Source: a virus
Strand: one strand, 5' to 3'
Length of the DNA stretch: 25,741 bases
Virus record (IMG/VR): IMGVR_UViG_3300030109_006383
Location: 1-25,741 of that record
A model generated the notes under the pieces. It was not told the DNA's origin, ran no database searches, and was given only the letters and a program-made list of their open reading frames with translations. Position numbers and translations under genes: made by a program. Shown in pieces: positions 5,023-25,741 of this stretch (positions are counted from its first letter, which is position 1; each line of letters begins with the position of its first letter).

Positions 5023-6553
5023 GACGTTCCGTACAATCAAGTATTTTGGACCCCCTGGAACCGGCAAAACCACTACACTACTTCGACAAATAGAGCAACA
5101 CCTAGACCAAGGAGTTGCTCCCGATCAAATTGCATTTATTTCTTTTTCTGTAAAAGCTGCAAATGAGGGGAAAGAACGGGCTCGAATGCGTTTTGGTTTA
5201 GACAAAGACGAATTGGTTTATTTTTGCACCAGCCACGCGTTTTGTAAAAGAGCCATGGGAATCACTCGAGTCATGGAAGGTGCTGATATTAAAGAGTTTT
5301 TAGAAAACTATAGTTTTCCCTTGACACAACACTATCACGGCAACACACGCAAGTCTTTGGAAGCCATGTTGGAAGACCCTTATTTTCAAATCATTGAAAA
5401 CGCCAAATCAAACTGCAACAGCGTCGGCGTAGAGCGACTTAAAACAGGGTTGAAACAAAGACAGAAAGTTGTGCCGTCTATGTTAGAACTGATTGATCGT
5501 GCGTGGGCACAGTACCGAGAAGAGCAAGGAATCTTCTCTTTTGCCGACATGATTCTTGAATTTATCAACAAAGGACGCGTTCCTCCTCTGCAAGTATTGG
5601 TGGTGGACGAGGCTCAAGACTTGGCAGAACTGAACTGGCGTCTGATAGAAAAGCTCATGTCCGTGGTCCCCGTTTCTTACATCGCGGGCGACGATGACCA
5701 AGCCATTTACGAATGGAACGGTGCACGTCCGGATCGGTTTATTGCCATGCAAGGAAACACCACGGTCCTCGATCAGTCGTTTCGAGTGCCCATACAGATA
5801 CACAAGGTGGCCGAGAAGATTGCCGGACGAATCAGTAACCGACAAGCCAAGACGTATTTACCCAGACCCGAAGAAGGCAGTTTAGAGCATTTGCATTCCG
5901 CAGAGTTCTTGCCTTTGGAAGAAGGAGAGTGGTTGATTCTTGCGTCTTGCGATTACATGTTGGACAAAAACCGCAAGCATCTGATTGATAAAGGCATTCC
6001 CTTTTCACACAACACCTTTCGTTACATTCCTTTTCCAATGATTCAAGCCATCGACGGGTGGAAAAAATTAAACAGAGAGCACACTAAAATTACAGTGGGG
6101 GAACTGGAAACGGTTTACAGATACCTTACAAAGAACGAAGTCAGAAGAGGGTTTTTATCTGCTCCAGGAAAAGAAGAAGACAAACAAAGAACGCTTTCTA
6201 AAAAAGAAGTGGTCAGCGCCTTCGGTCTTGCCGAAGAGTGTTTGGGGCGCTCATGGGAAGAACAGTATGCGAAAAAGATCAACGAAGAACGAAGAGCATT
6301 TATTAAAAAAGCATTTAAAAACAATGAAGATTTATACGGTGAACCGCGTGTTGCTTTATCGACAATACACAAAGCAAAGGGGGGAGAGGCAGACAATGTT
6401 GCGATATTGTTAGACCTATCCCCCGCACAAAAGCTTAACGCTGTTCTTAATGCAGACAGTTTGCATCGACAATTTTATGTCGCGGTGACTCGAGCAAAAG
6501 AAAATCTTTTCCTTATTAACGCACAAAACGAGAGTTTAAAATATGGCCTTTAA
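5015..6553 (+). CDS. UvrD/PcrA-like superfamily 1 DNA helicase, 512 aa
   Basis: The ATG at 5015 overlaps the end of the primase by 8 bases and has AAAGGA just upstream. The frame extends to 4970, but the extra 15 residues lie within the primase and are not needed. All core SF1A motifs are visible: Walker A GPPGTGKT (12-19), Walker B VVDEAQD with Asp198-Glu199, motif III GDDDQAIYEWNGA, motif IV-like QSFRVP, motif V STIHKAKGGEAD and motif VI YVAVTRAKE with Arg493. It should be a 3'-to-5' ATP-driven DNA translocase. It is shorter than UvrD (about 720 aa) because the accessory domains are reduced. No DnaB-type hexameric helicase is seen, so this may be the fork helicase. It overlaps the polymerase by 11 bases. 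Confidence 0.93.
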   Translation: MSRTFRTIKYFGPPGTGKTTTLLRQIEQHLDQGVAPDQIAFISFSVKAANEGKERARMRFGLDKDELVYFCTSHAFCKRAMGITRVMEGADIKEFLENYSFPLTQHYHGNTRKSLEAMLEDPYFQIIENAKSNCNSVGVERLKTGLKQRQKVVPSMLELIDRAWAQYREEQGIFSFADMILEFINKGRVPPLQVLVVDEAQDLAELNWRLIEKLMSVVPVSYIAGDDDQAIYEWNGARPDRFIAMQGNTTVLDQSFRVPIQIHKVAEKIAGRISNRQAKTYLPRPEEGSLEHLHSAEFLPLEEGEWLILASCDYMLDKNRKHLIDKGIPFSHNTFRYIPFPMIQAIDGWKKLNREHTKITVGELETVYRYLTKNEVRRGFLSAPGKEEDKQRTLSKKEVVSAFGLAEECLGRSWEEQYAKKINEERRAFIKKAFKNNEDLYGEPRVALSTIHKAKGGEADNVAILLDLSPAQKLNAVLNADSLHRQFYVAVTRAKENLFLINAQNESLKYGL

Positions 6554-8402
6554 AACATTTCAACCCCCCACAGAGTGGACTCCACCCGATACTTTTCCGG
6601 CACAAAGAATACTCGACGCCGATGAGATTGCAATCGACACCGAAACCAGAGACCCCTCTTTAAAAGAGAAAGGTCCAGGCTATGTTCGCGGCGACGGAGA
6701 GATCGTGGGAGTCTCCATTGCAATAGACGGCTACGCCGATTATTTTCCTTTTGCTCACGAAGCAGGATTTAATTTTCCAAAGAAGAGAGTCTTGGAATTC
6801 GTAAAGGACGTGCTGTCTGGAGACCAAGACAAAATCTTTCACAACGCCATGTACGACGTGGGTTGGCTAAAGAAGGAAGGCGTTGAAGTCAAAGGAAGAG
6901 TCATTGACACCATGGTTGTTGCGCCTTTGGTTAATGAAAACATGTATTGGTACACGCTTAATTCTTTGGGCATGGAATATTTGCAAGAGGGCAAGTCCGA
7001 GGCTGAACTCAGACAAGCCGCCGAAGAGTGGGGCATTGATCCGAAAGCAGAAATGTGGCGTTTGCCTTCTTCTTATGTCGGCACCTATGCAACACAAGAT
7101 GCAGCACTGACGCTTAAACTTTGGAATCATTTTAAAATTCATTTGGAAGAACAAAATCTTTGGAACATTTTTAACCTAGAGACAGATTTGTTTCCTGTTT
7201 TGTTTAACATGAAGATGACGGGAGTACGAGTGGACCTAGAACGAGCAGACAAACTAAAGAAACAACTGCTTGCCAAAGAGAAAAAGACGTTAAAAGAAGT
7301 GGAAAAGGTTTCCGGTATTAAAGACATAAGAGTTTGGGCGGCAAACGACGTGGCACAAGTCTTCGATGCGTGTGAAATTCCCTACAACCACACGGCCAAA
7401 GGTTCGCCAAGTTTTACCAAAGCGTTTTTAGCCAATCAAAAACACCCTGTTGCACAAATGATTATGCGTATACGCGAGCTAAACAAAGCCCACAAAACAT
7501 TTATAGACACGATCATTAAACACGCACACAACGGGCGGATTCACGCAGACGTCAGACAACTTAAAGGAGAAACGGGTGGAACAGTGACCGGAAGATTGTC
7601 CATGTCCAACCCGAACCTGCAACAAGTTCCTGCTCGAGACAAAGAGATCGGTCCTTTGATTCGTTCTTTGTTTCTTCCGGAAGAAGGACAGAAGTGGTGT
7701 TCGGCGGATTTTTCACAACAAGAGCCTAGAATACTGACTCACTTTGCCTATCGTTCTCAATACGAAGGGGCAGACACAATTGCAGAGGCTTACATTAACG
7801 GAGAGGCAGACTTTCACCAAGAGGTTGCCGATCTGGTGGGCATTGATCGCAAGACAGCCAAAACCATAGGGCTTGGAATCATGTACGGCATGGGCAAAGG
7901 AAAGCTTGCCGACCAGTTGGGCGTAGACGTTGAAGAAGCAAGCGACATTCTAATGCGTTTTAATACCTATGCGCCATTTGTTCGTCAAATGGCGGACACA
8001 GTGATGCGAAGCGCAAGCACTCGTGGCTACATTAAAACTTTGCTTGGACGACGGTGCCACTTTGATATGTGGGAACCGCGTCAATACGGCACCGGAAGGC
8101 CCATGAAGTACAAAGAAGCCATGCACGAGTACAACGGAGAGATCAAGCGTGCTTTCGTTTATAAGGCCCTGAACAAATTAATCCAGGGTTCGGCCGCAGA
8201 CATGACAAAGAAAGCCATGTTGGACTGCTACAACGCTTCCTATAAGCCTGTATTGCAGGTACACGACGAGCTTGTTTTTTCTGTGTCTAGTGAGGAAGAG
8301 GTAAAAGGCATTGCAGAGATTATGGAAAAGGCACTCAGGCTTGAGGTGCCGAACAAAGTTGATGCGGAACTTGGAGAAAATTGGGGCGATTCTATGTCCT
8401 AA
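6543..8402 (+). CDS. polA: Family A DNA polymerase with 3'-5' exonuclease domain, 619 aa
   Basis: The 3'-5' exonuclease domain has Exo I DTE (Asp32, Glu34), Exo II FHNAMYDVGWL (Asp105) and Exo III YATQDAALTL (Asp186), so proofreading should be intact. The polymerase domain has motif A SADFSQQEPRI (Asp389), motif B RKTAKTIGLGIMYGMG (Arg436, Lys440, Tyr448) and motif C VHDELVF (His574-Asp575-Glu576). There is no 5'-3' exonuclease domain, as usual for phage enzymes. The motif B residue equivalent to E. coli Phe762 is Leu444 (codon CTT at 7872-7874). It is the replicative polymerase of the module and overlaps the helicase by 11 bases. No inserted DnaJ-like zinc domain is present, unlike the HMO-2011 type. 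Confidence 0.97.
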   Translation: MAFKTFQPPTEWTPPDTFPAQRILDADEIAIDTETRDPSLKEKGPGYVRGDGEIVGVSIAIDGYADYFPFAHEAGFNFPKKRVLEFVKDVLSGDQDKIFHNAMYDVGWLKKEGVEVKGRVIDTMVVAPLVNENMYWYTLNSLGMEYLQEGKSEAELRQAAEEWGIDPKAEMWRLPSSYVGTYATQDAALTLKLWNHFKIHLEEQNLWNIFNLETDLFPVLFNMKMTGVRVDLERADKLKKQLLAKEKKTLKEVEKVSGIKDIRVWAANDVAQVFDACEIPYNHTAKGSPSFTKAFLANQKHPVAQMIMRIRELNKAHKTFIDTIIKHAHNGRIHADVRQLKGETGGTVTGRLSMSNPNLQQVPARDKEIGPLIRSLFLPEEGQKWCSADFSQQEPRILTHFAYRSQYEGADTIAEAYINGEADFHQEVADLVGIDRKTAKTIGLGIMYGMGKGKLADQLGVDVEEASDILMRFNTYAPFVRQMADTVMRSASTRGYIKTLLGRRCHFDMWEPRQYGTGRPMKYKEAMHEYNGEIKRAFVYKALNKLIQGSAADMTKKAMLDCYNASYKPVLQVHDELVFSVSSEEEVKGIAEIMEKALRLEVPNKVDAELGENWGDSMS

Positions 8403-8420
8403 TATATGTTGTATATATTA
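8400..8420. promoter_or_regulatory. Perfect 8-base inverted repeat, candidate operator of the RHH gene
   Basis: TAATATAT (8400-8407) and ATATATTA (8413-8420) are exact inverted copies separated by GTTGT. The repeat begins in the stop codon of the polymerase gene, overlaps the expected -35 region and lies 46 bases before the regulator's start. Arc/CopG-type proteins usually bind such short palindromes next to their own promoters, so autoregulation is the simplest reading. A stem made only of A-T pairs is too weak for a terminator. Confidence 0.5.
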
Positions 8421-8438
8421 AGGGACTTGTATTATAAT
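8409..8438 (+). promoter_or_regulatory. Likely sigma70-like promoter internal to the replication operon
   Basis: A perfect TATAAT (8433-8438) stands 18 bases after a weak -35 (TTGTAT, 8409-8414, matching TTG only). Transcription would start near 8445 and the regulator's ATG is at 8466. The weak -35 overlaps the palindrome, fitting a repressed promoter. Confidence 0.45.
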
Positions 8439-8465
8439 CTATCAGATAAACCATGAGGAGAATTT

Positions 8466-8612
8466 ATGAACACTGATAAATGGAAAAGCGTAGCGATACG
8501 AAAAGAAATCGTAGAGCTGGCTAGAAAAATTGGACTCGCAACAGAGCGTCCAACCAGTAATGTGTTTGCACAAGCCATTAAAGAAATGGCCGCAAAAGAA
8601 AAAATAAAGTAG
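8466..8612 (+). CDS. Ribbon-helix-helix (Arc/CopG-like) DNA-binding protein, 48 aa
   Basis: This short gene starts at ATG 8466 after a strong GAGGAG site (8454-8459) and ends with TAG at 8610-8612. The product reads as a strand (KWKSVAIR, residues 5-12), a first helix (EIVELARKIG, 14-23) and, after TERPTS, a second helix (NVFAQAIKEMAAKEK, 32-46). This is the size and layout of a ribbon-helix-helix repressor, which binds DNA as a dimer through the N-terminal strand. It would be a transcription regulator, probably of its own promoter and the downstream nuclease, and could bear on the lysis or lysogeny choice as Arc and Mnt do in P22. It starts 63 bases after the polymerase and ends 5 bases before the nuclease. 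Specific targets are inferred. Confidence 0.72.
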   Translation: MNTDKWKSVAIRKEIVELARKIGLATERPTSNVFAQAIKEMAAKEKIK

Positions 8613-8617
8613 GTGCC

Positions 8618-9304
8618 ATGAAGCACGACATTTTATTTGAGTCTCCGTATGAGTACGCAGAACTGACTCAAGAAACAGAGGACGGTCGACGTCTTTATGT
8701 TTATGGCGAAGAAAGGTTGCCCTCCGTGACCACTATTTTATCTGGAACAAAGAAAGGCGACAGCATAAAGCAGTGGATTGAAAAGGTCGGACAAGAAGAA
8801 GCGGATCGTATACGCAACGAAGCCGCGGCTCGAGGTACCGAAATGCACGAGATACTTGAAAGACAATTGAAAGAAGGCAACATTTGGGACTATTATCCAG
8901 AAACTCCCGACAAGAAAAAAGCTTATAAAATGGCTTGTACCATCATGGACCAAGGCTTTCCTTCCATCGACCAAGTATACGGTTGTGAAGTGCCTTTATA
9001 TTATCCAGGAAAATACGCTGGCACCGCGGATGTAATCGGGAAACATTTAGGCGAAGAAGCCATCATGGACTTTAAGCAAACCAACATACCCAAGAAAAGC
9101 AGACGCTATGTCTGGGACTACTTTCAACAACTTGCCGCTTATGCAACGGCGCACAATGCACTACACGGCACCGAAATCAAGAAAGGCGTGATTATGATGT
9201 GCTCAGTAGATTGTTTCTATCAAGAGTTTGTTTTAGAAGGCAGAGAATTTGATCGAGCCGTGGACGCTTGGAACGACAGAGTGGCCCAGTTTAGTCTTTT
9301 GTAG
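8618..9304 (+). CDS. PD-(D/E)XK nuclease of the RecB/Cas4-like superfamily, 228 aa
   Basis: The ATG follows the regulator's stop by 5 bases. The core motifs are visible in order: GTEMHE with His77, CEVPLYY with Glu124, GTADVIG with Asp138, MDFKQTN with Asp151 and Lys153, and QQLAAYA (170-176). This is the full active-site pattern of RecB-type exonucleases. The few cysteines (107, 123, 195, 199) are not arranged like the Cas4 Fe-S cluster, so it is more like the phage recombination exonucleases. It probably resects double-stranded ends for recombination or host DNA breakdown during replication. Its last 14 bases overlap the 3' end of the opposing giant virion gene, so the two operons converge without a spacer. 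Confidence 0.88.
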   Translation: MKHDILFESPYEYAELTQETEDGRRLYVYGEERLPSVTTILSGTKKGDSIKQWIEKVGQEEADRIRNEAAARGTEMHEILERQLKEGNIWDYYPETPDKKKAYKMACTIMDQGFPSIDQVYGCEVPLYYPGKYAGTADVIGKHLGEEAIMDFKQTNIPKKSRRYVWDYFQQLAAYATAHNALHGTEIKKGVIMMCSVDCFYQEFVLEGREFDRAVDAWNDRVAQFSLL

Positions 9305-12300
9305 AATACGCTTCAATTAATTCTTGCTCGGAAAAAATAGGTGTTCGAGCAGTAATGTCTTGGTTCTTTTTGTTTTCTTCAAACTCTACTGCTTTTTGAA
9401 CCACTCCTTGCCACGTCCACGCAATCGGTTGTTCTGCCCACTTGTTGTAGGACAATTTTTCTATTCTTGCCGCCAAAGTGCCAACACGTTCATCTATTTC
9501 TTGGTTAGACAAAAGATCTGGATTTTTTGCTTGCACGTTTCTAAGTTCAGCATCATAAGCTTTTATAAAACTGGAAATGCTTGTTGGTACATACAACGGA
9601 TTGTCGTTGCGGTCCGGTATGATGTTTGCTCTGTCCGCTTTTCGTAGAGATTTGATACGATCTTTTTCTGCAAGATAATTAAATGTTTCAGCAGGGGAAG
9701 TACCGAGAATGGGTGCCATCCAATGAATATCTAAACGCAAATCTCTCACTTGTTCAAAATGTTGTCGTTGCAACTCGTCGTAAGCTGCGACCATCGCCGG
9801 CATGTCGTCGTAACCCAGTTCGCGGCCCTCGGCTCTATAAAAAACACCTTTGGCCCACGATTCGCTGGTGCTCAATGCGTTGTTAAAACCAGAAATTTTA
9901 TAGTCGTTGATGATTTCTTTGGGAGAAATTTGATCTGTTTTAAACCCAAAAGTATAAGCCAGAGAACGCAAAAGATTTCTTTCTCTGCCTTTCTTGTCCA
10001 AAGACTCTTCCCCTGTAAGCACCAATGCTTTTGCTAGATCAAGACTTTCGTGGAAAATTTTTGGCGACACAGTGCTAATAAAACGCGTACCTTTGTCTTT
10101 CAATTGTATCCACCAAGGCGCATTTGGATCTGTGTAGGGTTTGCCTGTTTCTCGATCTTTTCCGCTAATAAATTCCAACACCGCTCTTTTCATAATCTTT
10201 TCATCGGTGTAGCTTGATCGCACGTTCTTTAAAGACTGCATAAGTGTGTCCCAAAGTTTGTCCGAAGCTTCTTCTCCTAAATACGCATCGGTGGCAAGGT
10301 ATTTTAACAACAACCTAGAAGGCTCAGAAATTAGTGTAAAACCGTCCGTGTGTGAAAAATCATACACTTCAAGCGTGCCATCCTCGTCGGCGTCTGATAC
10401 AAAAAGAAGATTGTTGTTGACCGACCACTCCGCAACAAAACGAGACAACGCTTGAGGAGCAATTAATGCAGTCGCCCCAACACCAATTCCTGCAACTTTG
10501 GCTGTTTTCCCTGCAAACCGTAAAGCGGTAGCAGCCGCCAAAAATGTTCCTGGTCCGACCATCCAAGCGGCATTGGATGTTCCACGCATGGCTGCTCTTT
10601 TTTGCAAACGAAACTTTAAACCAGCATCAACCGCGGGATCGCCCGAATGTGCTAACTGGTGTTCAAGCAACGCGGTCTTCATAGCGTTTGCTTGGCTTGT
10701 TATTACCGCAGTGTTAAAACCGGGGAAGTTAGAAACCAAGCCCAGTCTCAAAGCATCGAGAATGTTTGGCAGTCGATTGTAGTTTGGAATGTTTCTTCGA
10801 GTAAGAAACGAAGCTCTGGCATGAATGGCTTTTTGTAAATTCTCGGCAGGCGTGCTTTCTGAACGCGTTACTTTTCGACCGCCTTGCTCAACAACTAACT
10901 CAGAAATCATGTCAAACAGATCGTCCATTTGTTGCTCGGACAAATTTTGTGTGCCCTCGGGGACAAATACTCTAAGACCCGATTCTCTTTCTCCAAGATA
11001 GTTCATTATTTTAGGTATGTCGTCGGCCAGTTGGTAAAGTTCTTCCGCTGTGCGTAAGCCTCTTTGTGTTCCACGTTTGGCTTTTTCAACTCTGTCAACA
11101 GAACTTTCTTCTAAAAAGTCAGTGAACTCTTGCCAAGTTGCCATACCCTGCATTCTGTCGAGCATTGCTTTTCGTTCTCCAAGCATTACACTTGAACCAA
11201 TAATTCCTTCTCCAACAATAAAATCCAGTTCCGCTGAAGACATGTCTCCAAATTGTTCTTTGATGTATTGTGCCGCTGCACGCGGATTTTTGTATGCCTG
11301 CCAGTTACCCGACATCATGGGGAAAAACATCGCACTTTGAAAGTTTCTGCTCTGTGTTTTTACCGAAAGATTTAAGTAAGCAAGAGAAATGTACCCCATA
11401 GACCCCTGTGCACTTAAATAAGGTTGTTTGAGTGGATTAAGAAGCGCGGGCATCTCGTTTAAATAACGACGCAACGGACCGTAACCCATCGTTTTCATAA
11501 TCGCTTGTGCCATCGCAGGTGTTGTAAAGAAACCGTTAAGAGGGTTTAGTACATCACCAGGGATGGTAATTTCTGTATTGTACCGTGGTGTCTCTCGACG
11601 AGAAAGAAAACGTGTTGCAGGCGCGTTGCCAATCTCTGCAAGCTCCAATAAATATTCCGTTACAGCAATAAACTGTTCTTGCTTCATTGCGGTCATTTGC
11701 GCTTGTGCCCAAGACTCAGTGACCTCGCCCAAAGCTTTTCTTACCTCGCTTGGAATGTCGGCTCTTTTTTGTTTGAGTTGAGGCAGCATCAAAGTTTCTC
11801 CCCCTGTTTCCGCTGTCAGGTAAGGTGGAGTAAACTCAAACATAGACACAAAAAGCTCTGCTCTTTGTTGTCCTGTCCCACTGTATAAAATATCCAAGTC
11901 TCTCTCAGCCTGCTCTGTGGCCTCTTCCATGTTTGCACCTAATCCTTGCTTTTGTGCATAAATTCCTGCCAACTGCTCGACCGCAGCTTTGTGCTGATCT
12001 TTTTCTCTTTTTGTAGCGGTTAGCCTATTGGGAGGACGCCAATCAGGGAAAACGTACGCACCAAAAATTCTTCCCATGTAACGCTCAATTGCATCTTCCA
12101 ACATGGCCACTTTTTCTTTGGTGTACACTGTGCCTTCCGGATCAATCTTTTTAACCAAATCAATAATCCGTCTTGAGTTTTTGCTGATTCTTTTTCTTCC
12201 TTTTACAATCGCATCAACCAACTCTCCTTGGCCCAGTCGTCTCAATTCTTTTTGTGCTTTTTGATTTCCCCTAAACGCTTTTGCAATCAGTTCTTTAAAA

Positions 12301-15017
12301 CGATCCATGGTTGTCATCGGGTCAAGATAAGCCTCTCCAGACTGGTAAATCACGCCTTTGTCTTCCATCGTGGCTTTTATTTTTACCAAACCCTGTTCAA
12401 TGTTTTTTTCTAAAGTTTTTTGAATGTTTGCAATGTCTCTGAATATGCGATTGATTTGCCTTTCTGACAATCTGCCCTTGGCTATCGGTCCTTCGGGCCC
12501 TGTTTGCAACTCTTCCATGATTGTTGGACGCACGCCTCTCGGACGAAACAAACTTTTAAAACGATCATAGTAAAAAGCGGCCACTTCGGGGACGCCTCCT
12601 CTTACGAGGAGTTCTCTTGTTCTAACTGGAGACATTCCTGGATCTTTCATCATTTGAACCAATGCCCGTGATTGTGTGCCCGGTTCCCACAACGCTTGGA
12701 AAGTTTTGCCGTCCATTTCAATTGACGGCAACAACACCTCGCTTAAATTTAATGTTCCTGTAAGCGGATCAACAAACTCTATTGCGTCGTACTCTCGGTA
12801 AAACACTTCTCCGGTCAATGGATCTTTCAGTGCTCTCTCACTAAAGTCTCCTGTTCCAGCCATATCATAAAAGTACAACCGAATCGTAGAGTCAAACGGA
12901 ATGTTTTTAAAAGAAACTTGCGGCATTGCTTCCTTTTCATCTTCGGGAAGGTCTTCTCGAAACACCTGTTCTTTTTCCGCTGTGGGTCTATACACAACAA
13001 CATTGTCTCCAAACTTATATGGAATTATTTTTTCCCGTATTGTTTTGATAAAACTTTTAGGAGCAAAGAAACGACTGTTGACACCGTAAGGGTTCTGCAA
13101 ATTTTCTGGAAGATCGGGCAATTGCAACACAGGGTTTTGAGAACGCTCAACGATGGCATCTATTCTTGCTTGAATTTCTGCAATCTCTTGGTTGGTTTTT
13201 AGTACCTTCTGGTTATAGTCTTCTCGTTCTATTTTTCCTTCGGCAACTTTGTTGTCCAAACGCGAAAGAGCCACACGTTTGTTTAAAAGATTTTTTGATT
13301 GTGTGACCAAACGTCGAAGGTCTTTTTGCATTTCTTTGATGACCAAAGGAGCATTTTTATCTACGGTGCCCTGAGAAGTAAATCCAAGGTCCGCCATCTT
13401 TTGTGCCGTTGTGTTGTACGCCGTAACAATTCGGTCCGCGATTTGCGGATCAATAAGCTCGTCATACAGTTTTTGTATAGACGCATTATAGAAACCCGTT
13501 TTTCCTTTTTGGTTTTGTGCTTCTGGAGTATTTTCTAAAGCAAGGACGCCTTCATCAATCTCGTAAGGTGTGTACTCAACAGGTTCTAATCGTTGAACCC
13601 CGGTCCCCGGTCCTTCCATTTTGATTTCCGATAAGAGGGTTGTCTTTTCTTGGTTGAGTTCCTCGGTGATTTGTGCGTCTTCACTGTATTCAAGCTCTTC
13701 TTCAATTTCTCTTAATCGTTTTAAACGCTCGTCGTTTCTTTCAAACTCAGCGCGTGTTTGTTCAATACGGTTCACCTTTTGTTCGGCTTCAAGTATTTGT
13801 TTGTCTATTTCTTCAAGGGCCGTTGCTTGTTTTTTCTTGTCTTCTTTAAGCGTAACGTCGGTCAATATGCCTTCTCTTTGTTTTGAAAGCTCGTTTAAGT
13901 TTTGCACCGCTTCAGTTTGCGCTTCTCCAAGAAGAGCCAAACCCTGTCCAATTGTTTGTTCTGTTTCAATGTTTGGAAACAGTTCCAACTGCTCCGTTAT
14001 CGGCGGGTTTAAGGTCTCTTGTATTTCTTTGTCCGACAAACCGTAATCAATCATTTTAGCGGTAGCGACTTGCATACCCCCGGCTGTGAGTGTTGCAAAG
14101 AAAGTGATTACGGCACGTTTCTTTTTAAGTTCACCAAGAAGCTGTTCTTTTTGTACTCCGTCTAAATTTGGATCGTTTTCAATGGCCAATCTTTCTTTGT
14201 CCAAATCAAAATAATAGGCGTTAATGTTTTGTAGATACGTGGCTGCCTGTTCTCCTGCAATGTCTTGAAAAAGAAACTTGAGCGCGTTTACGGAGAATCT
14301 TCCGGCCGTATCTTTGGCGCCGGGAAATAATTTTAAAAGCGTTTTGGCAGGAATTATTTCGGTCGCGCCTTCAATAAACCCATCTATTCCACCATAAATA
14401 AATGCGTCTTTGTGCGATAAACCTTCGGCTCTTCCACTTGTATAGCTGTCGCCAGCCGTAAGCAAAGACATACCAGTAATCATTACTGTTGGATCTCTTT
14501 TAAAAATGCTTGCCGCCAATAACGGTGCCATCATAGAAAAACTTATTACACCGCTTCTGATTCCTTGTTGAAGAGTGTTCAAGTCTTCGGGGTTGAGGTC
14601 TTCAACACGCCTAATGCCTTCGTTAATTTGTTTAAGAAGCACCGTTGCTTCTGCGTCGATTTGTTTGTTTAGCTCTTCTCGTTCTTCAAGTGTTTTAGGC
14701 GCATAATAACCGCCCCCTGGGCCCACTACACCATATCGCATACTTTCCAAAGTGTTTAATTTTGCGGCATCTCTGGTGTTTTTAAACACTTGTCCGATTT
14801 GAGGACCAATGCCTTCAAAGGTTTCTGCAACGGCGGTGCTAAAAGTTTCATCTGCCTGTGCTCTCGCTTCATACGCCGCACCTACCGAATCAAGCCAAGA
14901 CTGTTTCCGTTGTCCGCGGACATCGAGTACATCTTCTTCGGGTGGGGGAGGAGGCTGTGTTTCAGTGCCTTTCGGAGCGTATGCCTCGAGAAGTTCCTCT
15001 TCGGAAAAAATAGGCAT
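9291..15017 (-). CDS. Giant internal virion or ejection protein (large polyvalent type), 1908 aa
   Basis: The ATG at 15015-15017 has TAGGAG upstream and lies 2 bases after the previous stop. Parts in order: short motif PIFSEEELLEAY (2-13); a PPPPP linker (22-26); a hydrophobic Gly/Ala-rich region (156-190); a long charged coiled coil (371-465); a long middle section rich in Arg/Lys/Glu; an Ala/Gly-rich hydrophobic stretch (1488-1525) of the kind found near the C-terminus of large polyvalent phage proteins; an EF-hand-like loop (1542-1553); and the same short motif again at the very C-terminus (1893-1908). Giant proteins with hydrophobic segments next to podovirus tail genes are usually internal core proteins that are ejected and form the DNA channel, like T7 gp16. 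No lysozyme or peptidase motif is recognised. Confidence 0.75.
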   Translation of the reverse strand: MPIFSEEELLEAYAPKGTETQPPPPPEEDVLDVRGQRKQSWLDSVGAAYEARAQADETFSTAVAETFEGIGPQIGQVFKNTRDAAKLNTLESMRYGVVGPGGGYYAPKTLEEREELNKQIDAEATVLLKQINEGIRRVEDLNPEDLNTLQQGIRSGVISFSMMAPLLAASIFKRDPTVMITGMSLLTAGDSYTSGRAEGLSHKDAFIYGGIDGFIEGATEIIPAKTLLKLFPGAKDTAGRFSVNALKFLFQDIAGEQAATYLQNINAYYFDLDKERLAIENDPNLDGVQKEQLLGELKKKRAVITFFATLTAGGMQVATAKMIDYGLSDKEIQETLNPPITEQLELFPNIETEQTIGQGLALLGEAQTEAVQNLNELSKQREGILTDVTLKEDKKKQATALEEIDKQILEAEQKVNRIEQTRAEFERNDERLKRLREIEEELEYSEDAQITEELNQEKTTLLSEIKMEGPGTGVQRLEPVEYTPYEIDEGVLALENTPEAQNQKGKTGFYNASIQKLYDELIDPQIADRIVTAYNTTAQKMADLGFTSQGTVDKNAPLVIKEMQKDLRRLVTQSKNLLNKRVALSRLDNKVAEGKIEREDYNQKVLKTNQEIAEIQARIDAIVERSQNPVLQLPDLPENLQNPYGVNSRFFAPKSFIKTIREKIIPYKFGDNVVVYRPTAEKEQVFREDLPEDEKEAMPQVSFKNIPFDSTIRLYFYDMAGTGDFSERALKDPLTGEVFYREYDAIEFVDPLTGTLNLSEVLLPSIEMDGKTFQALWEPGTQSRALVQMMKDPGMSPVRTRELLVRGGVPEVAAFYYDRFKSLFRPRGVRPTIMEELQTGPEGPIAKGRLSERQINRIFRDIANIQKTLEKNIEQGLVKIKATMEDKGVIYQSGEAYLDPMTTMDRFKELIAKAFRGNQKAQKELRRLGQGELVDAIVKGRKRISKNSRRIIDLVKKIDPEGTVYTKEKVAMLEDAIERYMGRIFGAYVFPDWRPPNRLTATKREKDQHKAAVEQLAGIYAQKQGLGANMEEATEQAERDLDILYSGTGQQRAELFVSMFEFTPPYLTAETGGETLMLPQLKQKRADIPSEVRKALGEVTESWAQAQMTAMKQEQFIAVTEYLLELAEIGNAPATRFLSRRETPRYNTEITIPGDVLNPLNGFFTTPAMAQAIMKTMGYGPLRRYLNEMPALLNPLKQPYLSAQGSMGYISLAYLNLSVKTQSRNFQSAMFFPMMSGNWQAYKNPRAAAQYIKEQFGDMSSAELDFIVGEGIIGSSVMLGERKAMLDRMQGMATWQEFTDFLEESSVDRVEKAKRGTQRGLRTAEELYQLADDIPKIMNYLGERESGLRVFVPEGTQNLSEQQMDDLFDMISELVVEQGGRKVTRSESTPAENLQKAIHARASFLTRRNIPNYNRLPNILDALRLGLVSNFPGFNTAVITSQANAMKTALLEHQLAHSGDPAVDAGLKFRLQKRAAMRGTSNAAWMVGPGTFLAAATALRFAGKTAKVAGIGVGATALIAPQALSRFVAEWSVNNNLLFVSDADEDGTLEVYDFSHTDGFTLISEPSRLLLKYLATDAYLGEEASDKLWDTLMQSLKNVRSSYTDEKIMKRAVLEFISGKDRETGKPYTDPNAPWWIQLKDKGTRFISTVSPKIFHESLDLAKALVLTGEESLDKKGRERNLLRSLAYTFGFKTDQISPKEIINDYKISGFNNALSTSESWAKGVFYRAEGRELGYDDMPAMVAAYDELQRQHFEQVRDLRLDIHWMAPILGTSPAETFNYLAEKDRIKSLRKADRANIIPDRNDNPLYVPTSISSFIKAYDAELRNVQAKNPDLLSNQEIDERVGTLAARIEKLSYNKWAEQPIAWTWQGVVQKAVEFEENKKNQDITARTPIFSEQELIEAYSTKD
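9328..9341 (-). repeat. 14-base direct repeat, copy at the 3' end of the giant gene
   Basis: The plus-strand sequence TCGGAAAAAATAGG is identical to 15001-15014. It encodes the PIFSE core of the motif near the protein's C-terminus. The surrounding codons for the rest of the motif differ although the amino acids agree. Confidence 0.8.
10359..10394 (-). other. EF-hand-like loop within the giant virion protein
   Basis: These 12 codons encode DADEDGTLEVYD (residues 1542-1553). Asp is at loop positions 1, 3 and 5, Gly at 6, Leu at 8 and Asp at 12, where Glu is usual. This matches the calcium-binding loop pattern closely, but flanking helices are not obvious and the fit could be chance. Confidence 0.35.
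15001..15014 (-). repeat. 14-base direct repeat, copy at the 5' end of the giant gene
   Basis: This is identical to 9328-9341 and encodes the PIFSE core of the N-terminal motif of the giant virion protein. The two copies are about 5.7 kb apart in the same orientation. Confidence 0.8.
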
Positions 15018-21866: not shown

Positions 21867-22307
21867 TTATTTTTTAACTAGACTACCACCAAAATACATG
21901 CCAATGATGGCCGATACTAGGTTTGTGTCTAGCTGTGTTATAACCAGTCCTTGAAATGTAATCCATTCAAAAACTTCTCTTCCTTCTTTAAAAAACCAAA
22001 ACCCCGGGTTCCAATTCGTATACCCAACCGTTACATCCACATCCGGATAAAATACTGCAACCAATTTTGGTAGCAACACGATTGCAAAGATAGAGGCCAA
22101 AGCAATGATTCTTCGTGTCCATGCAAAACCTTTGTCTTTTAGTCCGTGGTCCAAGGATTGTTTACGAGCTTTCATTTCAAACTCACCCCTTGTTATAAGA
22201 AGCTTTTGCTCTTCGGCTTTTGCCTTACGACTTTGTGCCCATATACTCAGTAAACTACTCAACAAAGTTGAGCCAAGCATGGTGATTATCTCAAACGGAA
22301 AGCCCAC
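21867..22307 (-). CDS. Small membrane protein, candidate holin, 146 aa
   Basis: The start is GTG (22305-22307), two bases before the preceding stop codon in the reading direction. The protein has an amphipathic N-terminus (FEIITMLGSTLLSSLLSIW), a charged Lys/Glu/Arg-rich coil, and a hydrophobic span (WTRRIIALASIFAIVLLPKL, about residues 63-82). It ends with a further hydrophobic part (LVSAIIGMYFGGSLVKK). The same layout, with FAWTRRIIAL and a GYTNWNPGFWFF segment, occurs in a family known to me from marine phages, where it is usually annotated as a membrane protein or holin. It could form the lysis pore. No endolysin is seen nearby, so the lysis role is inferred. Confidence 0.72.
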   Translation of the reverse strand: MGFPFEIITMLGSTLLSSLLSIWAQSRKAKAEEQKLLITRGEFEMKARKQSLDHGLKDKGFAWTRRIIALASIFAIVLLPKLVAVFYPDVDVTVGYTNWNPGFWFFKEGREVFEWITFQGLVITQLDTNLVSAIIGMYFGGSLVKK

Positions 22308-22308
22308 T

Positions 22309-22686
22309 TCATACTTTAGGTTTGGAACTATTTGTATAGAGTCCGAACCAAGCGGCCCCAGCGCCTACAACAATTGATATTAACCCCGATTGTTCAAAAC
22401 TGGGTTCCGGCAAATCCATGAACCAAAAAGTTGTGTAGTACAAAAGATACATATACACACCTAAAAAACATCTAGGTATGATTCTCCAAGAGTCTATGGC
22501 TTGTGCGACAAAGATAAACTTTTGATAAGGGTTGTCGTTCTTCTCGTCTTCTAAAGTTCTTATTTTATCTTTAAGCGCAGAGTTCTCTTGAAGCATCTCC
22601 ATAAACTTAGACAAGTCCATCTCAACTTCATTGCGAGACATGTCGCCACCGAATCTACTGCTTGGATGATATTGATCGTCGCCCAT
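22309..22686 (-). CDS. Two-span membrane protein with coiled-coil N-terminus, 125 aa
   Basis: The ATG at 22684-22686 lies one base after the upstream stop. A second ATG 15 codons in (22639-22641) is also possible. After a polar start the protein has a coiled coil (FMEMLQENSALKDKIRTLEDEK, about residues 28-49). Two hydrophobic spans follow (about residues 70-90 and 104-121). It overlaps neither neighbour but is separated from both by only one base. It may act with the candidate holin as an antiholin or inner-membrane partner, but structural use in the virion is also possible. The family is not named. Confidence 0.7.
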   Translation of the reverse strand: MGDDQYHPSSRFGGDMSRNEVEMDLSKFMEMLQENSALKDKIRTLEDEKNDNPYQKFIFVAQAIDSWRIIPRCFLGVYMYLLYYTTFWFMDLPEPSFEQSGLISIVVGAGAAWFGLYTNSSKPKV

Positions 22687-22687
22687 A

Positions 22688-23053
22688 TCAGTTTGCCAAT
22701 GGATTGTCGTTCATGTTTTTTAAACTGCGTACATCGTCATACATAGAATCAACACTTGCATTGATACCAGCAACACTTGTTTGCAATGCAACAATGTCGT
22801 CTTTAATAGGAGACAAGTCTTCTGTTTCTATGTTTAACGATTTAATCTGTTCGCCAACCGCAACCACTTGTTTGTCCATAACCGCAACTTCGTCAGCAAG
22901 CGCGTCTATTTCGTTAATGTAACGAGCCATCTTAGATTCTAAATTAGTAATTCTATTAACATAGCCCGCACCTGTATAACCGAAACCAGCCAAGGTACTG
23001 ACAATACCAGCAAGGGCTATGAGTTGAGTTGTTTTATTTTGAAACCAATCCAT
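22688..23053 (-). CDS. Membrane-anchored coiled-coil protein, 121 aa
   Basis: The ATG at 23051-23053 has a strong AGGAGG upstream. An N-terminal hydrophobic segment (LIALAGIVSTLAGFGYTGAGYV, about residues 11-32) acts as a signal anchor. It is followed by a long coiled coil to the end (residues 35-115) with regular Ile/Leu/Val spacing. Short N-in membrane anchors with a periplasmic coiled coil resemble inner-membrane spanins of phage lysis cassettes, but there is no matching outer lipoprotein in view. This is the first of three adjacent small membrane genes, probably one functional block. Confidence 0.72.
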   Translation of the reverse strand: MDWFQNKTTQLIALAGIVSTLAGFGYTGAGYVNRITNLESKMARYINEIDALADEVAVMDKQVVAVGEQIKSLNIETEDLSPIKDDIVALQTSVAGINASVDSMYDDVRSLKNMNDNPLAN

Positions 23054-23061
23054 TTTTCCTC

Positions 23062-23292
23062 CTAATAATATTTAGTAACTTTTCTTCTGTCGTCCATCAC
23101 TGCGCCACAAGCTTTTGCAATTCCTGATCTTACAGGGCCCCCAATTTGCATTTTCTTAACCGCTGAGTCTTTAAGTGCTTTAGCGGTTGGAGCGCCTTTA
23201 GAACCAGGCTTTCTCATTTTTTCACCTGAACCCGCTTTTATTCTTTTTCTTTTAGCGTGGATGTTATCCCACAATCCTTTTTGTTTTGCCAT
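23062..23292 (-). CDS. Small basic phage protein, 76 aa
   Basis: The frame is open to 23358. The ATG at 23290-23292 gives the family-like start MAKQKGLWDNIHAKRKRIK, followed by AGSGEKMRKPGSKGAPTAKAL, a pattern I know from many phage and prophage mini-proteins. The product is Lys/Arg-rich and has no membrane segment. Two Cys-free basic blocks are followed by a more hydrophobic C-terminus ending in TKYY. The start lies one base after the upstream gene. The function is unknown; it may bind nucleic acid or a virion protein. Confidence 0.75.
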   Translation of the reverse strand: MAKQKGLWDNIHAKRKRIKAGSGEKMRKPGSKGAPTAKALKDSAVKKMQIGGPVRSGIAKACGAVMDDRRKVTKYY

Positions 23293-23293
23293 A

Positions 23294-23575
23294 TCAACAC
23301 TTCCATCTTCTTCTAGCAGCTTTGCCTCTTTTACCCGTCCATCCTTTTGACCGAGCACAAAAAGACTTACGTCGTTTTGCGGCTTTGCTGCCTCTTTTAA
23401 CTTTCCCTGTAACCGCGGTCTTTAACTTTGATCCAGGATTCTTTTTTCTATAGGCTTTGACTCCTTTTTTAGTCATGCCCGCGCCCTTTTTAGTAGGACG
23501 GTAGTTCGCACCTTTTCCTTTCGTGGTGCGTCTTATTGACTTCGTTTTTCTTCTACTTTTTCTTTTTGCTGCCAT
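23294..23575 (-). CDS. Highly basic protein with KSFCARSKGW domain, 93 aa
   Basis: The chosen start is the ATG at 23573-23575. The open frame back to 23593 would need a TTG start. No clear Shine-Dalgarno is visible, so coupling to the overlapping upstream gene is likely. The first 50 residues are almost all Lys/Arg/Gly/Thr. The C-terminal half contains GSKAAKRRKSFCARSKGW and ends in WKC. This short cysteine-containing domain recurs in many marine phages and large DNA viruses as a domain of unknown function (I believe DUF6321-like, not verified). The charge suggests DNA or RNA binding. Two Cys residues may bind metal or oxidise. Confidence 0.75.
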   Translation of the reverse strand: MAAKRKSRRKTKSIRRTTKGKGANYRPTKKGAGMTKKGVKAYRKKNPGSKLKTAVTGKVKRGSKAAKRRKSFCARSKGWTGKRGKAARRRWKC

Positions 23576-23711
23576 GCGTTTTTTGAACACCAAAACTAGC
23601 GTAAAGACTTGCGCCTTTATGCGGTTTATATTTGCCCGTATGTTTCATTAACTTAGGGGCCCCTCTTTTTTGTTTCATCCAATGAAACCCTTTTGGTGCT
23701 TTTACTTTCAT
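23553..23711 (-). CDS. Small basic phage protein, 52 aa
   Basis: The ATG (23709-23711) overlaps the TGA of the large adhesin gene as ATGA. The reading frame runs to TAG at 23553-23555. It overlaps the next gene by 23 bases. The product opens with VKAPKGFHWMKQKRG and continues with APKLMKHTGKYKPHKG and ASLYASFGVQKTH. Residues are mostly Lys, His, Gly and Pro. I recognise this as a tiny conserved protein often found beside virion genes in uncultured marine phages; its function is unknown. Conserved overlaps and the family pattern support it as a real gene despite its length. Confidence 0.75.
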   Translation of the reverse strand: MKVKAPKGFHWMKQKRGAPKLMKHTGKYKPHKGASLYASFGVQKTHGSKKKK

Positions 23712-25741
23712 AATTGTGGTTGCATGTCCATTAAATCTTTTATTCCAGTCAAACTTTGACCATATAGCCCAACAAAAGCAGAGTTATTGTCCGGTATGGA
23801 TACATTACCATAAATTGCTTTCGGTGTGTACCAGTTGGACGCATCGTCAAGCGTTACTTGCCTGTACGCATTAAACCCTGGAACATAGCCCATGTAGGCA
23901 ACAAGTTGACTGGAATCGGCATATTCTCCGGTTTCCTGTTGTTCTTGTTCTATTTCTTTTTGCTGGGTTTTTATGTTTTGTGCCACGATTTGATTGGCAA
24001 TTTGGTCGGCTTCACTTTCCACTGTGTTTTCCGAAACAGCCGTATCTATTTGGCTTTGCATGTCTTGCGTTTCGCTGGTTGTGTTTTGTCCTCCCGCAAC
24101 AACAATCTCTACAGAACCCGTGGTTGCACTTTCTGAAGATCCTCCTGTGTCACTAACACTTGTGGTATCAGAAGAAACAGTTGTTGAGCTGTCCGTGGTC
24201 CCCGGTCCTTGGTCCGCCGTTGTCGTTCCTTGGTCCATGGTTTCTCCTCCGCTAAAAGAAGAAGCGCTTACATCGGAGGCACTCATGGACAGTATTTCTT
24301 GAGTTTGTTGAGCGGAACTTGCCACTTGAGCAGAGATACTGGGCGAACTGTCAATGCTTATTGTGCCTCCAGAAACAGAAGAACTTACAGCGGAACTTTG
24401 AGAACTGGCGACTACTCCACCGGAGGCAACAGAATTTCCTGTTGCGTGCGATGATGTTCCAGCAGTTGTACCACTGACGCTGTTGCTTGCGGCCCGAATG
24501 GTGTTGGCTACAACATTTAGTTGTTCTGCTCTTTTGTTGTCTTTTTTGTCTTCGTTCTCCGCGACAACAGTTTCGATATTCTCATCTCGATCTTGTATCT
24601 CTTCCTCAACTGTTTCTGCATCCTCCAGTTCTCCAACTTCATCTTCAACCGATTCAGCAAGTTCTTCTTCGTGTTCAATCCATTCCTCCAATTCTTCTAT
24701 GGTTTCAAATTCTAAAAACTCTATTGGCTCTTCTTCAATATAGTCTTCTATGTGTTCTTCGTGTTCAAAGTGTTCCAGTAGAAAATCTTCTAATATAGGC
24801 AGATCGTAGTCTGTTTCATAATATTCTTCTACCAACAATATTTCTTCATATAACTCTTCTATATAAGGCGCTTCTTCGATATAACTTAACGGAATAAAAA
24901 CTTCTTCCGGCAACGCGTCAAATTCTTCTACAAAAGGTTCAAGATATTCTTCTTCAAATAAAATGTATTCTTCTTCAAAATATAATGTTTCTTCGTAATA
25001 AAGTTCTTCTTCAAAGTAGTAATCTTCCTCTATCCCCTGTAACTCAGCAGTGTATACAAACTCTTCTTCAAAGTAATAATCTTCTTCGTAATACGATTCA
25101 GTGTATCCATACATGTCTTCTTCATAATCATCGTACCCATACATATCTTCTTCGTAATAGGTATTTTGTTCAAAAGTCTCAACCATGTATCCCGGACACG
25201 CAGGCGAATATTGAGCGTCATACGAACACTCATAATCAAATAAATCGTCCCAATAGTTAGGGCACTGAGTAGAATACAGTCCATCTAAATCACACTGTTG
25301 AGTTAAGTACGCTGCTTCATATCCTGAACAAGCGGTGTTATTCAAGGGGTTACTGCAATCCAAAGCATTGCCAGAACCTAGACCATATAAGCTACCCCCA
25401 TTTTCTAATAATGTATTAAATGAAGTGTTATTCCAATCGGTATTAACGCAAGTGCCAACAACATTTGTAGTTCCTACACCACACTCATCGTGAAACAAAT
25501 AGGTGTAAGTTTGTTGCGATGTGCCTTGTTCCCCTATCAATACGTCGTGGTTTATTATGTCTAGCCCACCGTATCTAAACTCAAAGCTGTCGTCTGACTT
25601 CCACAATATGACTTCAAAACTATTGTCAGAACCACTGCGGTTGTATTCTCGTAGGTTGTACCATCCAAAGACAGTTTTATCTGTAAAGTTCCTAGCAAGA
25701 ACACTGGAGCCGTTGTCTCGTATTAAATCAGTCCAGAAAGG
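23708..25741 (-). CDS. Large adhesin-like virion protein with Cys repeats and Glu/Tyr-rich stalk; 5' end outside window
   Basis: The frame has no stop up to 25741; the TTG at 25604-25606 is an internal Leu. 677 codons lie in the window. In order from the edge: a nidogen-like beta domain (FGWYNLREYN; NSFEVILWKSDDSFEF; QTYTYLFHDE); a region of eight cysteines with CDLDGLYSTQCPNYW and CSYDAQYSPACPGY repeats; a stalk rich in Glu, Tyr and Phe of about 210 residues (24542-25174); a Ser/Thr/Gly-rich linker of about 145 residues (24062-24496); a charged coil; and a compact C-terminal piece with YVPGFNAYRQVTL and NWYTPKAIYGN. The layout suits a surface fibre or receptor-binding protein, with the C-terminus fixed to the virion. 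Cys repeats like these occur in marine phage and bacterial surface proteins. The role is inferred from domain order. Confidence 0.75.
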   Translation of the reverse strand, partial: PFWTDLIRDNGSSVLARNFTDKTVFGWYNLREYNRSGSDNSFEVILWKSDDSFEFRYGGLDIINHDVLIGEQGTSQQTYTYLFHDECGVGTTNVVGTCVNTDWNNTSFNTLLENGGSLYGLGSGNALDCSNPLNNTACSGYEAAYLTQQCDLDGLYSTQCPNYWDDLFDYECSYDAQYSPACPGYMVETFEQNTYYEEDMYGYDDYEEDMYGYTESYYEEDYYFEEEFVYTAELQGIEEDYYFEEELYYEETLYFEEEYILFEEEYLEPFVEEFDALPEEVFIPLSYIEEAPYIEELYEEILLVEEYYETDYDLPILEDFLLEHFEHEEHIEDYIEEEPIEFLEFETIEELEEWIEHEEELAESVEDEVGELEDAETVEEEIQDRDENIETVVAENEDKKDNKRAEQLNVVANTIRAASNSVSGTTAGTSSHATGNSVASGGVVASSQSSAVSSSVSGGTISIDSSPSISAQVASSAQQTQEILSMSASDVSASSFSGGETMDQGTTTADQGPGTTDSSTTVSSDTTSVSDTGGSSESATTGSVEIVVAGGQNTTSETQDMQSQIDTAVSENTVESEADQIANQIVAQNIKTQQKEIEQEQQETGEYADSSQLVAYMGYVPGFNAYRQVTLDDASNWYTPKAIYGNVSIPDNNSAFVGLYGQSLTGIKDLMDMQPQL
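24542..25174 (-). repeat. Acidic, tyrosine-rich low-complexity stalk in the adhesin
   Basis: Imperfect peptide repeats such as YEEDMYGY (twice), EEDYYFEEE (twice) and LYFEEEY/LFEEEY are spread over about 210 residues with runs of Glu. At DNA level the TTCTTC-rich unit repeats with small changes, as in 25008-25031 versus 25063-25084. This suggests growth by slippage or unequal recombination. Confidence 0.85.

Follow-up and report, generated by a model that had tools for sequence, protein, structure and literature searches.

A putative exported phage adhesin with an acidic, aromatic-rich stalk belongs to a widespread three-gene module

Why would a phage encode a protein in which cysteine repeats run into a long stalk of glutamate, tyrosine and phenylalanine? 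Few viruses are as abundant as the phages that infect SAR11 and other ocean bacteria, and most of their genes have no assigned function. The protein considered here belongs to a virus of marine bacteria and comes from a 25.7-kb virus record (IMGVR_UViG_3300030109_006383), all 25,741 nucleotides of which make up the window that was analyzed. Its open reading frame, gene B, occupies 23708-25741 on the minus strand and encodes 677 residues; it is open at the window end and cut on its 5' side. The loss, estimated from the relative L005, amounts to about 105 residues including the signal peptide, and this copy ends before both the signal peptide and the neighboring gene A. The first-pass annotation had singled out 24542-25483, which corresponds to residues 87-400 of the frame and covers the Cys repeats and the Glu/Tyr/Phe stalk. 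The features of the region are the following.

23708..25741, minus strand: gene B, putative exported modular adhesin, 677 aa, cut at the window edge
25445..25741, minus strand: C-terminal half of the RemA/NIDO-like beta head, aa 1-99 (profile against RemA; AF2 model of L005)
25187..25444, minus strand: Cys-repeat neck (GYxxAYLTQQCxLxxLY..CPxYW..), aa 100-185 (helical in AF2, pLDDT ~80)
24548..25186, minus strand: acidic stalk rich in aromatics, aa 186-398, predicted disordered, with a net charge of -88
24945..24994, no strand: 21-nt tandem repeat within the stalk, shorter by one unit in L003
23930..24547, minus strand: Ser/Thr/Gly/Asn-rich linker, aa 399-604
23711..23929, minus strand: conserved C-terminal tail (GEYAD..YMGYVPGFNxY..WYxxxxIY..DNxxAF..), aa 605-677
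23294..23593, minus strand: basic DUF6321 protein between B and C (Pfam PF19846, 2.9e-10)
23062..23358, minus strand: second small basic ORF between B and C
22688..23053, minus strand: gene C, N-terminal membrane helix and coiled coil, ending in DNPLAN
22309..22686 and 21867..22307, minus strand: two small hydrophobic-helix genes beside C, possibly holin-like judging from sequence only

Is gene B peculiar to this phage? Scanning IMG/VR with the window B fragment recovered 64 related loci. Complete relatives, of about 600-970 residues, supply what the window copy lacks, a signal peptide and the N-terminal half of the head, and their parts follow one order: signal peptide, RemA-related head, Cys-repeat neck, acidic spacer, Ser/Thr linker and a tail of fixed length (73-76 residues in all aligned relatives). 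Pairwise identity averaged over 60 aligned members is highest in the head (0.58) and neck (0.56) and falls to 0.43 in the tail, 0.38 in the linker and 0.35 in the stalk. Scans of B against Pfam, PHROGs and NCBIfam gave nothing above cut-off, a weak NIDO match aside, and no family in the libraries searched covers the whole of B. Queried by tblastn against 50,697 phage records, the window B had no match at 1e-5 and the B of L024 none at 1e-3, while PADLOC matched neither B nor A to known anti-phage defence families. A BFVD search with the B model found two uncharacterized phage proteins (E 1.9e-14 and 3.6e-4). The nearest polymerases to that of the window phage are those of 023Pt_psg01, DSL-LC04 and HTVC023P, at ~50-53% identity. 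Elsewhere in the window, 9291-15017 encodes a 1908-residue protein, possibly an internal or ejection protein, that has no Pfam or PHROGs match.

The adhesin-like nature proposed by the first-pass annotation finds support in the head. Family profile A3 matched RemA (8gl6_D) with an E-value of 4.6e-14, profile positions 9-157 aligning with RemA residues 9-170; the B of L043 also matched the Pfam NIDO family at E 1.7e-4 and 22.1 bits, under the 25-bit cut-off. The title of a reference cited in PMC8986121 describes RemA of Flavobacterium johnsoniae as a mobile cell-surface lectin, and by homology the head of B is a putative binding domain. PDB fold searches with the whole B model, weakened by its disordered stalk, produced no significant match: Foldseek gave E > 0.3, and the best VIA-align hits (Z 5.3) were carbohydrate-active enzymes. 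We do not take this as a sign of a new fold. In the AF2 model of L005 the head reaches a pLDDT of ~90 and the neck ~80, in line with the earlier view that the domains flanking the stalk are folded, and the tail is helical. The neck cysteines (C255-C287 of L005) are retained in 55-56 of 56-57 relatives. Head and neck together show a dN/dS of 0.04-0.07 where it could be computed, and the low value in the head favors a conserved target over an arms race.

Is the stalk itself maintained? In the window its 213 residues are 42% Asp/Glu (Glu 34%, Asp 7.5%) and 19% Tyr/Phe/Trp (Tyr 12%, Phe 6%), with 73 Glu, 16 Asp, 26 Tyr, 13 Phe, 1 Trp, 1 Arg and 0 Lys. The aromatics are concentrated in the first half and fall to zero at the end. 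The longest run of the window B free of Lys and Arg extends for 328 residues, across which trypsin has no cleavage site, so standard proteomics may have missed much of the protein. Purifying selection acts on the stalk gene: its dN/dS is 0.13 against L002, a 99% copy, and 0.17-0.23 against L003, L004, L005 and L009. In the 60 aligned members the stalk holds D/E at 0.39 +/- 0.03, aromatics at 0.14 +/- 0.03 and Lys/Arg at 3%, and its length ranges from 115 to 333 residues (mean 213); these lengths were taken from the alignment because automatic segment end-points shortened some stalks, for example those of L015 and L105. An acidic block, defined as an 80-residue stretch with at least 40% D/E, is present in 85/85 complete NIDO-head relatives, its sequence and length varying. 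A composition held while the sequence drifts matches the expectation for a disordered spacer. The unusual segment is thus real and kept by selection, as had been supposed, and a frame error or chance ORF was rejected given the unbroken single frame, the low dN/dS and the acidic block in every relative with the same head. The suggestion of an ordered, aromatic-lined stalk fared less well, since AF2 predicts residues 294-440 of L005 to be disordered (pLDDT ~30). The imperfect repeats are mostly at the protein level, with few repeats in the DNA. The exception is the 21-nt tandem at 24945-24994 (2.4 copies), by which the window and L002 exceed L003 by exactly one in-frame unit of 7 codons; slippage thus alters stalk length, as the first-pass annotation had anticipated. 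Several relatives (L010, L018, L039, L040, L061, L065 and others) carry a conserved module, EEDMWYDEEYDEWLDPNDPCYENxCEGFTDADWYELDVEQFGQEQVDEW, in place of the initial part of the stalk.

What, then, does the stalk contribute? Other B proteins carry Pro-rich spacers (L134, L140, L153, L155), and that of L172 has about a dozen Cys repeats instead of an acidic stalk; the L172 protein (6459-8597) carries 32 Cys in all. Because these related proteins with other heads bear Pro-rich or Cys-repeat spacers, the stalk is best read as a probable exchangeable spacer. Acidity appears confined to some lineages and aromatics mainly to the NIDO-head lineage, and spacers of other chemistry in the same gene position imply that the system needs neither. 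With the chemistry swapped and the tail kept, the role of the spacer would be reach, perhaps charge, rather than a specific aromatic surface. Tail profiles tie the NIDO-head B to the Pro-rich group (A4-A5, 97%) and the Pro-rich group to the pelagiphage B (A5-A6, 79%). Direct comparison of the tail profiles of NIDO-head and pelagiphage B was not significant, and the link between them runs through the intermediate family together with synteny. As to whether the stalk can be replaced without effect on its flanks, a point raised at the outset, the Pro-rich and Cys-repeat spacers beside a related tail in the same position suggest, in part, that it can; the NIDO-head relatives are all acidic.

Gene B has constant neighbors. 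Gene A lies directly upstream in 45/45 B-anchored loci with enough sequence, and gene C within ~1 kb downstream in 55/55; when loci were anchored on A, 59/59 viral contigs had C no more than 600 nt from B, as against 8 of 2655 control positions. The 79% relative L003 has an A gene that overlaps B at its start. Of the two partners the window shows C alone, separated from B by 654 nt in which two small basic genes lie; A is beyond the edge. The very basic DUF6321 gene adjoins the very acidic stalk gene here and lies upstream of A in L005, a difference in position that indicates loose linkage; its product is a possible candidate for the basic partner that the first-pass annotation envisaged. Gene A has at least 582 matches in viral contigs but matches only 26 stretches when 84,980 species genomes are searched, almost all of these in metagenome-bin contigs, and by this disparity it looks like a phage gene. 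Only through gene A was the B family connected to cultured phages: the order A-B-C recurs in HTVC033P, HTVC115P, HTVC023P, HTVC202P, Baldr, Mosig and uvMED Votkovvirus S28C10. Their B proteins have another head, twice annotated as carbohydrate binding, and an acidic spacer with few aromatics, and several end in an FYxxKDIYxxQ tail. In the Roseobacter phages CRP-207 and CRP-810 an A-like gene is followed by a different gene. Module-bearing phages include podoviruses and a myovirus of SAR11 and many uncultured phages. The module was also seen in very large phage contigs of 167-332 kb (L153, L155, L156, L158). A literature search found no description of the A-B-C module. Its parts (signal peptides, lectin-like heads, coiled-coil partners) are of known kinds; their combination and spread appear undescribed in the literature and libraries searched.

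The product of gene A starts with a signal peptide, followed by a Thr/Asn repeat and then a domain whose cysteines are invariant (SQDLC..DENCERxKL..GMKVAAVAxLCQDxRVFxAM..AGTPCP). PHROG 20531, of unknown function, matches 63/63 A-domain proteins scanned and covers gene A alone. The repeats can be long, reaching 100% N/T/S over 60 residues (L005:4578-5705 and others), and the domain after them is predicted to form a beta-hairpin with strands partly alternating polar and apolar residues. A model of the A domain had no significant match in the PDB, again not taken as a sign of a new fold; its hairpin strands span 29-37 and 42-50, with weak alternation and a model confidence of ~60. On this model, A could conceivably form an oligomeric beta-hairpin pore. 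The C-terminus is hydrophobic and of membrane type in 20/91 A proteins; A ends in such a helix in L134, L142, L145, L153, L155, L158, L164-L167, L171, L174 and L075, and in marine NIDO-B lineages mostly in a basic, Cys-containing tail. Nearly all C proteins end in an NPL motif (NPLAN, NPLAG, NPLNDVE), an invariant terminus suggestive of a role in docking or processing. Applied to C, the positive-inside rule places 30 proteins N-in and 20 C-in, with 23 ties; with the counts split in this way, the coiled coil of C may be cytoplasmic. That coiled coil, which is charged, gives weak matches to many unrelated families, and PADLOC returned weak coiled-coil matches only.

Where would these proteins go? 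A signal-peptide-like start was found in 84/88 B proteins and 86/88 A proteins, as against 28/283 of the remaining large ORFs in those loci. The calls come from a hydropathy rule, not from SignalP, and the choice of start codon is biased toward signal peptides, for which reason the same rule was run on the other ORFs as a control. At the sequence level, export and the domain architecture have good support; the exact job set out below is a proposal. A lipobox was present in only 1/136 B proteins, which sets them apart from spanin-type outer-membrane lipoproteins, and no outer-membrane export signal was recognized in B.

We tentatively favor, at somewhat less than even confidence, the reading that the phage encodes in B a modular adhesin, exported by Sec, which forms an envelope-anchored tether with A and C. 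Sec would export A and B from the host cytoplasm, the step with the best support, and the tail of B would then dock to A, to the membrane protein C, or to both. The acidic spacer, a polyanion replacing the Pro-rich spacers of its cousins, would carry the head from the inner membrane through the periplasm, and the head would grip a conserved glycan of the envelope or surface. Were the complex produced late, it would tether or destabilize the envelope at lysis; alternatively, the head might be displayed on the dying cell after the outer membrane opens. The best reading of the site of action is accordingly the periplasm or the surface, around lysis. Late expression is suggested by one feature, the place beside lysis genes: in 106 loci, lysozyme-type genes were matched in up to 40 and spanin-type genes in up to 18.

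Could B instead shield the infected cell? Exported B might cover a host receptor on the cell or its debris, blocking progeny and rival phages, as Llp of T5 does with FhuA. Sec export, the adhesin head and the difference in heads among phage lineages are all compatible with such masking or superinfection exclusion. Set against them are the missing lipobox and outer-membrane route and a head that is strongly conserved rather than diversifying. Receptor-masking proteins, moreover, usually have no need for two obligatory partner genes, and we consider this explanation unlikely. We give similarly little credence to B being a fibre or spike of the particle whose head binds hosts or other particles. 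Its layout of head, spacer and tail with exchangeable heads does resemble receptor-binding proteins, and the place of the module between structural and lysis genes in some loci would suit it; yet the signal peptides divert A and B from cytoplasmic virion assembly, and a tail-fibre-like gene in L015 and an annotated tail fibre in S28C10 are encoded separately. More doubtful still is a lysis device in which A-B-C bridges the inner and outer membranes and aids rupture in the manner of spanins. The module does lie near lysis genes, and C, a small protein, combines a membrane helix at its N-terminus with a coiled coil and weakly matches Rz-like spanins (phrog_739, 2.6e-4); however, L015, L019 and L024 have a separate spanin-like pair (assigned by eye), B is no lipoprotein, and the coiled coil of C weakly resembles many unrelated families. 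That the stalk is neutral low-complexity drift with no function of its own is highly improbable, for its lower identity than the head (35% against 58%), variable length and slippage are outweighed by the maintained acidity and scarcity of Lys/Arg, the acidic block in all relatives and a dN/dS well below 1.

Returning to the exported tether, the wider proposition is also possible, if more speculative: A-B-C may be an undescribed, very widespread envelope device, composed of a head-swappable exported adhesin with an exchangeable spacer and two dedicated partners, that serves lysis, release or the capture of neighboring cells. If true, phages of this kind spend resources on an adhesive device that they secrete, besides their virion fibres. 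The three genes make a definite, testable unit of two exported proteins and a membrane partner, and they are present in several cultured pelagiphages.

How does this arrangement compare with known systems? As in TonB, a low-complexity spacer joins a membrane-associated end to a folded end, and a B homolog from spring water is annotated "transport protein tonB"; the order of parts differs, and the Pfam scans gave no TonB domain match. Two-component spanins (Rz/Rz1) share with C a small membrane protein with a coiled coil, and a location in the lysis region is common to them. The module differs in having three genes and an adhesin head on a B that is not a lipoprotein, and some of the phages that bear it carry a spanin-like pair as well. 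RemA, a 1436-residue gliding adhesin of the bacterial cell surface according to references cited in PMC8986121, is homologous to the head of B, which is also weakly related to NIDO; the phage protein has none of the other RemA parts and brings its own neck, stalk and tail. The pelagiphage "putative carbohydrate binding domain containing protein" (HTVC033P gp45; uvMED S28C10 BAQ94057) has a different-looking head, far fewer aromatics and no Cys-repeat neck, but it occupies the same slot between A and C and shares the signal peptide, a head, an acidic spacer and, in pelagiphages, a tail of the FYxxxxIY type.
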